This document shows positions 48,152 to 51,764 of a DNA stretch of 64,000 bases, in pieces. Position 1 is the first letter of the stretch. Each line of letters begins with the position of its first letter. The position numbers and the translations under genes are program-made. Below the pieces are notes generated by a model. The model searched no databases. It was not told the origin of the DNA and saw only the letters and a list, made by a program, of their open reading frames with translations. Source of the stretch: Nitrospira sp. (lineage in GTDB: Bacteria > Nitrospirota > Nitrospiria > Nitrospirales > Nitrospiraceae); contig JAFEBL010000020.1 in NCBI GenBank assembly GCA_018242665.1, positions 1-64,000 on the forward strand. Direction: 5' to 3'.

Positions 48152-50488
48152 ATGGCGAAATCTTTGATCATTGTTGAGTCGCCGACGAAGGCGCGCACAA
48201 TCACGAAATATCTCGGCCGCGGCTACTCTGTGATGGCCTCCGTCGGACATGTCAAAGACCTGCCGACCAGTAAGTTGGGTGTCGATCTCGAAAACGATTT
48301 CGAGCCCCAATACGTCACGATCAAGGGAAAATCGAAGGTCCTTGCGGATATTAAGAAGAAAGCCCAGGAAGTCGATACCGTGTTCCTGGCCCCGGACCCG
48401 GACCGCGAAGGAGAAGCGATCGCCTGGCATATCGCGCAGGAATTACACGGCAAGGGGAAGAAGAAGGACGGCAAAGTCTTTCGAGTCTTGTTTAACGAAA
48501 TCACGGAATCGGCGATTAAGCGAGCCTTGAAGTCGCCGGGCGAGATCGACATCAAGCTGGTGCAGGCGCAGCAGGCGCGGCGGGTGCTTGATCGCATCGT
48601 CGGCTATCAGGGCAGTCAGTTGTTGTGGAAAAAGGTTCGCCGTGGCCTCAGCATGGGACGGGTGCAGTCTGTCGCAGTCCGGCTCATCTGCGATCGCGAA
48701 AAGGAACGCGAAGCGTTCCGGGCGGAAGAGTATTGGTCCATCGTCGCACTCTTGAGCGGGGCGAATCCTCCGGCCTTTGAGGCGAAACTGCATTCCGTCA
48801 ATGGGCAGGACGCGGATATCGGTACCCAGGAACAGGCCGAGCACATTCTCCAGGCCGTGCAGGGGAAAGCGTTCGTCGTGCAATCGATTGAGCGCAAGGA
48901 AAAGAAGCGGAACCCTGTCGCGCCGTTCATTACCAGCCGGCTTCAGCAGGAGGCTGCCAGGAAACTGCACTTCACCCCCAAAAAGACCATGACTTTGGCG
49001 CAACAGCTCTATGAGGGGGTGGAAATCGGCGCGGAAGGTCAGACTGGCCTGATCACCTATATGCGAACCGATTCGCCAAGAATTTCCCAGGAGGCGACTG
49101 ACGATGCCAGGGCGGTGATCGGGGCGCGATTCGGGGCAGAGTATTTACCGGCTACGCCCAATGTGTACAAGACGCAAAAGGCCGCGCAAGAGGCCCATGA
49201 AGCGATTCGTCCTACCGTCGCGGCTCGCGATCCTGAATCAATCAGACAATACCTGGAGCAAGATCAGTATAACTTGTACAAGCTGATTTGGAACCGATTC
49301 ATCGCGTCGCAGATGGTTCCCGCCATTTTGGATGTCACGCGGGTGGATTCCAGTCCTGTCGGGACAGTGGATCGCTATGTGTTTCGGACGACCGGCACTG
49401 TCATCAAGTTTCCTGGACATACGGCGGTATATCTTGAGGGAACCGATGCGATCCAGCCTTCGCAGAAGCCGAAGAATGAGCAGGAAGCGGAGGAAGAATC
49501 AGATCGGCAACTTCCTGCTCTCAGTGAGGGTGAGTCGTTGCGCCTCGTGAATCAGGAGGGCCAGACTGCGCCGGGCTTGCTGTCGAAGCAACACTTCACG
49601 CAACCGCCGCCACGATACAATGAGGCGCTGCTGATTCGGGAGCTGGAAGAGAAGGGGATCGGACGTCCGTCAACCTATGCCACCATTATCTCCACCATTC
49701 AGGACCGGAAGTATGTGGAGAAGCTTGAGGGGCGTTTTCTTCCGACCGAAACCGGCCGAACTGTAAATGACTTCCTCCTCAAGGGATTCCCGGATCTCCT
49801 CGATACCGAATTTACTTCCCACATGGAGGAGCAACTCGACGAGGTGGAGGAAGGCACGAAGCCTTGGGTCTCCGCGGTGCGGGAGTTTTATACCCCGTTC
49901 GTCAGAGAGATGGAGTTGGCGCAGAGTATTCCCGGACCAAAGGATATCGTCGAGCCTCCAACAAATCTGCCTTGTGAAAAGTGCGGCCGCATGATGGAGA
50001 TCAAGTGGGGGCGGAACGGCAAGTTTCTCGCCTGCCCAGCGTACAAAGAAGATCCTCCCTGTAAGAATACGCAAAACTTTGAGCGGCTGCCGGATGGGAC
50101 CATTAAGATCGTTCCCAAGCTGGAGGAAACAACGGACGAAAAATGTGAGAAGTGTTCCAGTCCCATGGTTGTCAAGTCAGGGCGTTTCGGCAAATTTCTG
50201 GCTTGTTCGGCCTACCCGGAGTGTAAGACGACGAAAGCGATCGCGCTGGGGGTGAAATGTCCTCAGCCCGGATGCGGTGGAGATCTGGTGCAGAAACGAA
50301 CGAAAAAAGGACGCAACTTTTACTCCTGCAGCCGATACCCCGAATGCGAATTCGCACTCTGGGATCGTCCCGTCAATAAACCGTGTCCCACGTGCAAAGC
50401 GCCCTTCCTGATTGAGAAGGTCAGCAAGCAAGCCGGCCGTTCCGTCCAGTGTCGCAATGAGGAATGCGGATATCGCGAAGCGGGATAA
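48152..50488 (+). CDS. topA: DNA topoisomerase I (type IA)
   Basis: A 778-residue enzyme that relaxes negative supercoils. The TOPRIM domain starts it (LIIVESPTKARTITKYLGRG; DPDREGEAIAWHIA), and the active-site tyrosine lies in GLITYMRTDSPRIS. The C-terminal part has four zinc ribbons, each CxxC...C(x)nC: near CEKCGRMME, CEKCSSPMVV, CPQPGCGGDL and CPTCKAPFL. Such ribbons bind DNA and RNA polymerase. It has its own promoter, so it is separate from dprA despite the short gap. Confidence 0.97.
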   Translation: MAKSLIIVESPTKARTITKYLGRGYSVMASVGHVKDLPTSKLGVDLENDFEPQYVTIKGKSKVLADIKKKAQEVDTVFLAPDPDREGEAIAWHIAQELHGKGKKKDGKVFRVLFNEITESAIKRALKSPGEIDIKLVQAQQARRVLDRIVGYQGSQLLWKKVRRGLSMGRVQSVAVRLICDREKEREAFRAEEYWSIVALLSGANPPAFEAKLHSVNGQDADIGTQEQAEHILQAVQGKAFVVQSIERKEKKRNPVAPFITSRLQQEAARKLHFTPKKTMTLAQQLYEGVEIGAEGQTGLITYMRTDSPRISQEATDDARAVIGARFGAEYLPATPNVYKTQKAAQEAHEAIRPTVAARDPESIRQYLEQDQYNLYKLIWNRFIASQMVPAILDVTRVDSSPVGTVDRYVFRTTGTVIKFPGHTAVYLEGTDAIQPSQKPKNEQEAEEESDRQLPALSEGESLRLVNQEGQTAPGLLSKQHFTQPPPRYNEALLIRELEEKGIGRPSTYATIISTIQDRKYVEKLEGRFLPTETGRTVNDFLLKGFPDLLDTEFTSHMEEQLDEVEEGTKPWVSAVREFYTPFVREMELAQSIPGPKDIVEPPTNLPCEKCGRMMEIKWGRNGKFLACPAYKEDPPCKNTQNFERLPDGTIKIVPKLEETTDEKCEKCSSPMVVKSGRFGKFLACSAYPECKTTKAIALGVKCPQPGCGGDLVQKRTKKGRNFYSCSRYPECEFALWDRPVNKPCPTCKAPFLIEKVSKQAGRSVQCRNEECGYREAG

Positions 50489-50676
50489 CAAATTCCCTCC
50501 CGTGTTCCGACCTCGTGTGGTGAGTCTTCTTCGTCACTGTCGATCATCCATTCCGTGCCAACCCCCATCATTCGCCGGCCTCGCCACGGCGCATCCATCT
50601 CAGATCCTTGATGAGGGCAATGAGAAGCGTTCTCGTCGATGTTGAGAACCGCCCTCATAACTACGTAACTCCGTGG

Positions 50677-50705
50677 TTGACAAGGCCAGCGAGAATCTCT
50701 AAGTA
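50677..50705 (+). promoter_or_regulatory. candidate promoter of the bacterioferritin pair
   Basis: TTGACA (50677-50682) with TAAGTA at 17 bases (50700-50705). The -35 is perfect, the -10 is weak; TAGAAT slightly downstream has no matching -35. No convincing Fur box was found in 50489-50784, which otherwise holds no gene I can support. Confidence 0.45.
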
Positions 50706-50784
50706 AGGTGTAGAATGAATTCAAGATGGATGAAGCAACATCCATCAAGAGGGCCGGATCGTTCATGGCTGGAGGGAGGGCTCT

Positions 50785-51261
50785 ATGAAAGCTAAACAGG
50801 GCGTAATCGACTTACTCAATAAAATACTGACAGCTGATCTCACCGCCATCAATCAATACTTCGTCCATGCGAAGATGTGCGCGAATTGGGGATATGATCG
50901 CCTCCACCATAAGGTGAGAGAGCGTAGTATCGATGAGATGAAGGATGCCGACGAGTTGATCAGCCACATTCTGTACTTGGAAGGTGTGCCTAACGTGCAG
51001 CGGATGAATACCGTGCACATTGGGGAGACGGTTCCCGAGCAGTTGAAGCTTGACCTCAAGGCCGAGCAGGAAATGTTGGCGCTGTTGAGCGAAGGCGTGA
51101 CCCATTGCGCGAAGGTCAGTGACTTTACGACCCGGCATATGCTTGAGGACATGGCCAAGGATGTGGATGGGCACATCGATTGGATCGAGACGCAAATGGA
51201 AACGATCAAGCAAATCGGTGTCGAGAATTATCTGGCTGAGCAGATCAAGAAGGACAGTTAA
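50785..51261 (+). CDS. bfr: bacterioferritin, haem-binding type with degraded ferroxidase site
   Basis: A 158-residue four-helix ferritin that aligns to E. coli bacterioferritin without gaps through residue 133, so numbering is shared. The haem ligand Met52 is present (DEMKDAD). Of the six ferroxidase ligands, Glu51, Glu94 and His130 remain. The others are changed: Glu18 is Asp, His54 is Asp and Glu127 is Val. It should bind haem but oxidise Fe(II) poorly alone. The next gene encodes a complementary paralogue 32 bases downstream; a mixed 24-mer is inferred. Confidence 0.93.
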   Translation: MKAKQGVIDLLNKILTADLTAINQYFVHAKMCANWGYDRLHHKVRERSIDEMKDADELISHILYLEGVPNVQRMNTVHIGETVPEQLKLDLKAEQEMLALLSEGVTHCAKVSDFTTRHMLEDMAKDVDGHIDWIETQMETIKQIGVENYLAEQIKKDS

Positions 51262-51293
51262 TATCGCGCCCTGGCGTGGTGATGGGGGTATGG

Positions 51294-51764
51294 ATGAAAG
51301 CGAAAGAGGGAGTCCTCGATATTTTGAACAAAGTGTTGGTCAGTGAGCTCACCGCGGTGCATCAATATCTGCTGCACGCGGCGCTCTGTAAGCACTGGGG
51401 GTATGGTCGGCTTCACGAGCATTTCAGCCACCTGGCCCAGGAAGAAGTCGGCCATTCCTCTGGCCTCATCGATCACATCCTCTACCTGGGCGGAGCGCCC
51501 GAGATGAATCGGCTCGATGCCGTCGCTGTCGGAAAGAAAGTGCCGGAGTTGTTGGAGGCCGATCTTGCGTTCGAGCGCGAGGATGCAGAGGCATTGCGTG
51601 GGGGAATCGCCCATTGTGTCAAGGTCGCAGACTACACGACCAGACATCGACTTGAGGAAATGATTGTTGACACGGAGGAGCACATTGAGTGGTTTGAAAC
51701 CCAGCTCCGCACAATTTCCCAAGTTGGATTGGAACGGTACCTGGCCGAGCAGATTGCTGGATAA
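51294..51764 (+). CDS. bfr: bacterioferritin, ferroxidase type lacking the haem methionine
   Basis: A 156-residue paralogue of the preceding protein in the same numbering. Ferroxidase ligands Glu18, Glu51, His54, Glu94 and His130 are present; Glu127 is Thr. The haem ligand Met52 is Val. It therefore looks like the iron-oxidising partner of a two-subunit bacterioferritin. The ATG at 51294 gives the family start KAKEGVLDILNKVL; an earlier in-frame start at 51276 would add six residues. Both genes form one transcript ahead of a hairpin. Confidence 0.93.
   Translation: MKAKEGVLDILNKVLVSELTAVHQYLLHAALCKHWGYGRLHEHFSHLAQEEVGHSSGLIDHILYLGGAPEMNRLDAVAVGKKVPELLEADLAFEREDAEALRGGIAHCVKVADYTTRHRLEEMIVDTEEHIEWFETQLRTISQVGLERYLAEQIAG

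Follow-up and report, generated by a model that had tools for sequence, protein, structure and literature searches.

The window, a 64,000-nucleotide stretch of a Nitrospira sp. genome (assembly GCA_018242665.1, contig JAFEBL010000020.1), carries two adjacent, co-directional bacterioferritin (bfr) genes, the arrangement that marks tandem-type pairs (PMC12120770). We call their products alpha and beta (Table 1). Both proteins score over their full length above the curated cut-off (125.55 bits) of the bacterioferritin profile NCBIfam TIGR00754, alpha at 185.9 bits and beta at 146.8. Both also match the PF00210 domain, and they align with each other without gaps at 51% identity over 154 residues. 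We place the start of beta at its ATG; starting at the listed GTG (51276) would lengthen the protein by six residues that homologues do not have. Modelled alone with AlphaFold2 (mean pLDDT 96.3), beta has five helices in the predicted bacterioferritin fold of a four-helix bundle and a short C-terminal helix, and the best structural match to the model is the Achromobacter bacterioferritin 5zur (Z 26.6, rmsd 0.7 over 155 residues). Alpha has the same fold as judged from its sequence. Close homologues that carry names in the genome collection all belong to Nitrospira or Nitrospiraceae, including N. moscoviensis and N. defluvii, and the same-strand spacing between alpha and beta is short in most pairs of the family, which is compatible with a single transcript.

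Table 1. Coordinates of the bacterioferritin gene pair, its upstream block and its diagnostic codons in the window.
Feature	Position	Strand	Remarks
Alpha, haem-type bacterioferritin subunit, 158 aa	50785..51261	+	intact ORF
Beta, ferroxidase-type, haem-free bacterioferritin subunit, 156 aa from ATG	51294..51764	+	intact ORF
Spacer between alpha and beta, 32 bp	51262..51293	+	
Conserved upstream block, putatively regulatory; TTGACA and palindrome TGAGAAGCGTTCTC (50621-50634)	50609..50715	+	
Alpha codon 18, GAT Asp (E. coli Glu)	50836..50838	+	Asp 124, Asn 6 among 130 alphas
Alpha codon 52, ATG Met, axial haem ligand position	50938..50940	+	Met in 130/130 alphas
Alpha codon 54, GAT Asp (E. coli His)	50944..50946	+	Asp in 130/130 alphas
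Alpha codon 127, GTG Val (E. coli bridging Glu)	51163..51165	+	Val in 126/130 alphas
Beta codon 52, GTC Val (E. coli haem Met)	51447..51449	+	Val 80, Met 14, Ile 5, Leu 2, Thr 1, Cys 1 among 103 betas
Beta codon 127, ACG Thr (E. coli bridging Glu)	51672..51674	+	Thr 52, Ser 51, Glu 0 among 103 betas

Alpha follows topA (48152-50488) in the window and in two further genomes (G135, G189), and an AraC-type regulator gene is convergent with the pair. The block upstream of alpha recurs in close Nitrospira relatives. Its palindrome, TGAGAANNNTTCTC, matches the E. coli Fur box at 13 of 19 positions, a score that about 1.5% of simple shuffles reach, and is possibly an iron-responsive operator. Across the 4.06-Mb genome the exact palindrome occurs just once more, within an ORF, and thus no regulon emerged; a sigma-70 scan found no consensus promoter. 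In comammox-lineage genomes (L282 1-7224; L283; L286), a bfr gene or pair sits beside CopD, CopC and AmoC genes and not topA. On one comammox Nitrospira scaffold, L234 by name and L282 by place, the pair adjoins these genes, in agreement with PMC4863621. In N. moscoviensis, two neighboring bfr genes are among the 300 most expressed (PMC6606698); these are probably the pair at our locus L213.

Two complementary signatures distinguish the subunits. Numbered by E. coli Bfr (verified as identical to PDB 1bcf) in a single-block, gap-free alignment, positions 18/51/52/54/94/127/130 read DEMDEVH in alpha and EEVHETH in beta. Alpha has three of the six canonical di-iron ligands (E18, E51, H54, E94, E127, H130) and beta has five; neither has the full set. 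This is the complementary pattern described for tandem pairs (PMC12120770), in that beta lacks Met52 and keeps the ligands save Glu127, while alpha has Met52 and altered ligands. An earlier note on this DNA had assigned Met52, Asp18, Asp54 and Val127 to the first protein, Glu18, Glu51, His54, Glu94, His130 and Val52 to the second, and a missing Glu127 to both (Val in alpha, Thr in beta); the gap-free alignment agrees at every position. The window's genome also encodes a third ferritin-like protein (L003 1372-1920, G000:C15), which reads EEQHEEH and falls below the bacterioferritin cut-off.

The signatures hold across relatives. We took regions from a 395-genome phylum sample, a 78-genome family sample and 80 named loci, and compared 130 distinct alphas and 103 distinct betas. 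All alphas share Met52, Lys53, Asp54, Glu94, His130 and Tyr25; Glu51 is found in 129, Asp18 in 124 (Asn in the other six) and Val127 in 126. All betas share Glu18, Glu51, His54, Glu94, His130 and Tyr25, and 14 of the 103 carry Met52. The inner-site residue His46 is kept in 85 betas and is never the commonest residue in alphas. Alpha is the more conserved protein, with 56 invariant columns of 154 to beta's 26, and the chance that beta's five kept ligands would all fall within those 26 is roughly 1e-4 if columns are treated as exchangeable. At their invariant ligand sites, alphas and betas both show synonymous codon variation, which is what selection on the residue would produce. (A register shift in one beta row gives odd codons in the codon table; it does not affect the residue counts, which were taken from the alignments.) The earlier note had argued that haem and ferroxidase signatures are complementary, and a search among these alphas and betas for other residues at the ligand positions left that claim standing.

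Genome G372, in which beta is frameshifted, has a further alpha-like gene, L145, whose signature DVMDEAH includes Val51 and Ala127. Single-copy bacterioferritins of a sister family (L011-L015, L022, L023 and others) read EEMDEEH, with Asp54 and all the other ligands kept, an unusual site in what may be that family's main bacterioferritin.

We considered how the loss of Glu127 bears on beta's di-iron site. In Bfr of Blastochloris, Fe1 has Glu18 and His54 as its terminal ligands, Fe2 has Glu94 and His130, and the two irons are bridged by Glu51 and Glu127 (PMC3467274); by these roles, beta has both terminal sets and one bridge. Thr127 also occurs, together with Met52, in single-copy bacterioferritins of Achromobacter (5ZUR), Burkholderia, Indioceanicola and Niveispirillum. 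Loss of Glu127 alone is therefore no mark of an exotic site, and the idea that Thr127 is unprecedented can be set aside. Moreover, mutating the Glu127 equivalent of Shewanella SoBfr1 left iron staining visibly unchanged (PMC12120770), which together with the natural Thr127 proteins makes activity of beta's site plausible. The literature searched yielded neither a Thr127 bacterioferritin mutant nor an activity measurement for any Thr127 protein. Combining these observations, we conclude that the di-iron site of beta is altered yet probably usable. The earlier suggestion that the ferroxidase subunit may use an altered site thus stands insofar as Glu127 is absent, and falls short insofar as this absence is not peculiar to beta.

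The surface that docks the ferredoxin Bfd separates the subunits as well. In P. aeruginosa Bfr, the Bfd cleft combines residues 68, 69, 70 and 72 from one subunit with 78-80 from its neighbor (PMC13366587); we added positions 81 and 85, the sites of deposited BfrB mutants. The 130 alphas keep V68, P69, N70, Q72, G80, E81 and E85. The 103 betas mostly have T/A68, D/E70 and K/R81, with position 72 mixed. A Bfd-like gene is present in the window's genome and in 19 of the 21 family genomes examined, and Bfd- and haem-mediated release is predicted, on these residues, to go through alpha-alpha dimers. The docking residues are lost even in the betas that carry Met52 (EEMHETH; L160, L161, L167, L168, L179, L186, L192, L196, L265 and L277). 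Met52 betas of the L160 group nest within Val52 betas in the tree, which suggests that they regained the methionine.

Dependence between the subunits is one-sided: beta occurs only together with alpha, and alpha also occurs without beta. A beta-profile search of 78 family genomes gave a match in 62, comprising 40 with alpha-type and beta genes, 22 with an alpha-type gene and no intact beta, and none with beta alone. The 22 alpha-only genomes, which reject a strict one-to-one dependence, are at least 90% complete in 18 cases; three are of the EEMDEEH form or less complete, and one (G112) is uncertain, with Ns adjoining alpha. The genomes in these counts are non-independent, hence we claim no p-value. 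Remnants of beta survive in G102 (the first ~42 residues) and G372 (frameshifted), the same as loci L247 and L227. Each of the genera g2, g4 and g7 contains both paired and alpha-only genomes, which under vertical inheritance makes three or more losses of beta likely. The absence of beta-alone genomes matches experiments showing poor assembly of the ferroxidase subunit when its haem partner is missing (PMC6529640). For the division of labor that the earlier note had proposed, the complementary signatures prove to be fixed, and strict obligation does not follow, given the 22 of 62 genomes without intact beta and the 14 of 103 betas with Met52.

In G143, an alpha-like EEMDEEH gene (L010) and a beta-like EECHESH gene (L140) lie on separate contigs and are apparently unlinked. 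G127 has, besides an intact pair elsewhere, a second beta-like copy decayed by two stop codons (L157, C19). The only pair found with beta before alpha is L047 (G226), whose alpha reads NEMDETH.

We propose, as the likeliest reading, that the pair is a tandem-type hetero-bacterioferritin in which alpha is the structural and haem subunit and beta an added, haem-free subunit responsible for most Fe(II) oxidation. We infer a mixed 24-mer, its dimer types, the binding of haem and the identity of the iron-oxidizing subunit from what the genomes display directly, namely the sequences and their conservation, the gene pairing, the one-sided co-occurrence and beta's loss of Bfd-docking residues. Alpha-alpha dimers would hold haem between their two Met52 residues and provide the docking surface for Bfd, so that electrons would enter there to free stored iron. 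Beta, normally haem-free, would do most of the Fe(II) oxidation at a site formed by E18, E51, H54, E94, H130 and Thr/Ser127. Beta would be non-functional without alpha, and alpha functional without beta.

How alpha works alone is the question raised by genomes that lack beta. Since alpha still has His130 and a carboxylate at four of the six ligand positions, it may not be inactive. It could instead be an active or semi-active ferritin by itself, with a rebuilt site of D18, E51, D54, E94 and H130, and beta an optional booster and not the sole ferroxidase. In keeping with this, D54, E94 and H130 are invariant and E51 nearly so (129/130), and at every one of these sites both of the synonymous codons occur, whereas sampled proteobacterial haem subunits are scrambled at the ligand positions (LEMAENH, QVMSETR, EKMNEQQ, EDMQEEY, EDMHVEH). 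Single-copy relatives of the same order combine Asp54 with the other ligands (EEMDEEH), and alpha does without intact beta in the 22 of 62 genomes, among them G189, a single-contig assembly in which it is the sole PF00210 gene. That genome makes a purely haem-only role for alpha doubtful, and the altered site may still work. However, G189 also encodes a rubrerythrin that could share an oxidative-stress role, a di-iron site with Val127 and Asp18 would be unusual, and invariant ligands are weak evidence in a protein so highly conserved overall. We judge an active alpha unlikely as the full account of the pair.

Separate homopolymers of alpha and beta, used under different conditions, are considerably less probable. 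Both are complete bacterioferritin chains above the family cut-off, and alpha stands alone in many genomes. Against this, the genes are adjacent on the same strand with short spacing, beta is never found without alpha, and the tandem pairs tested in other bacteria all co-assemble (PMC6529640, PMC12120770). That the substitutions are meaningless drift between degenerate paralogues after duplication is very improbable: several lineages are indeed losing beta, and G102 and G372 retain only remnants of it, yet beta's kept ligands are invariant in 103 proteins despite synonymous codon change, and the loss of Met52 and gain of Thr/Ser127 follow a consistent pattern across genera.

Returning to the reading of alpha as haem subunit and beta as added ferroxidase, we asked where beta came from. 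In trees built after removing all seven signature columns, alpha, beta and single-copy forms of the same order (EEMDEEH, EEMHEEH) cluster together, and a proteobacterial haem-free clade (Neisseria, Azospirillum, Pseudoalteromonas) with full support is separate from beta in both trees. Placing alpha within the proteobacterial haem subunits is strongly rejected (AU p 3e-51). Forcing beta into the proteobacterial haem-free clade gave an AU p of 0.0105 on a careful 61-row tree and 0.108 on a quick, rougher 108-row tree; the smaller set was picked after the larger result, so an independent origin of beta is favored and unproven. Window beta also lacks, in the alignment, the one-residue helix-4 insertion (DTEEDH) of the proteobacterial haem-free subunits. 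A haem-free subunit shared with proteobacteria by descent or transfer is thus disfavored, even though the larger tree gave the higher value, and the data suggest that beta arose independently. Two further tandem pairs, G137 (L018; EEMDEEH + EEMHEEH) and G376 (L074; EEMHEEH + EELHETH), look like intermediate stages by their signatures. A bolder scenario, in which alpha is a stand-alone haem bacterioferritin with a rebuilt, carboxylate-rich D18/E51/D54/E94/H130 site and beta a later optional booster of independent Nitrospirales origin, is conceivable but rather unlikely.

Nitrospira rank among the major nitrifiers, and their respiratory enzymes are rich in iron. An independent origin of the subunit split in this group, if true, would mean that division of labor in ferritins evolved repeatedly in bacteria. 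The variety in this family, with pairs, alpha alone, beta remnants, Met52 betas and single-copy Asp54 forms, is a natural series that could show which di-iron ligands and haems are truly needed for iron oxidation and release.

Several known systems share the division of signatures. In Magnetospirillum gryphiswaldense, one of two tandem bfr genes lacks Met52 and has a ferroxidase center, its partner has Met52 and mutated ferroxidase residues, and the mixed 24-mer of Bfr1 and Bfr2 has been demonstrated (PMC6529640). That system is proteobacterial, and its haem subunit has different ligand losses (E18Q, H54A and H131M were introduced from Bfr2 in PMC6529640); in Nitrospira, by comparison, nearly every pair starts with the haem gene, and Glu127 is missing from both subunits. 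SoBfr12 of Shewanella oneidensis (PDB 9IIG), also a hetero-bacterioferritin born of tandem duplication, assembles 12+12 subunits as homodimers, with a haem-free subunit for oxidation and a haem subunit for reduction and release (PMC12120770). SoBfr1 has the one-residue helix-4 insertion and keeps the Glu (E128), whereas Nitrospira beta has no insertion and carries Thr/Ser127; SoBfr2 has lost Glu94, whereas Nitrospira alpha keeps it and has D18, D54 and V127. The window's subunits are 51% identical, against the at most 45% reported for known tandem pairs, a reported observation and no strict definition (PMC12120770). BfrA/BfrB of Neisseria gonorrhoeae resemble the pair in tandem order and division (EETHEEH beside LEMAENH), but their haem-free subunit falls inside the proteobacterial haem-free clade and has the helix-4 insertion. 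The Achromobacter protein (PDB 5ZUR), the nearest solved structure to beta, shares Thr127 and differs in having Met52 (EEMHETH); we take it to be an ordinary single-copy bacterioferritin. The likeness to heteropolymeric bacterioferritins that the earlier note had drawn is thus supported by the same division in Magnetospirillum and Shewanella, and its proteobacterial analogy needs qualifying, in that the host is Nitrospira and beta is, by the trees, apparently of separate origin. In the literature searched, the pair in Nitrospira's phylum was not described as a tandem hetero-bacterioferritin. Together, these comparisons indicate that it is probably a conserved tandem hetero-bacterioferritin of the known kind, with fixed substitutions of its own and, probably, its own origin.
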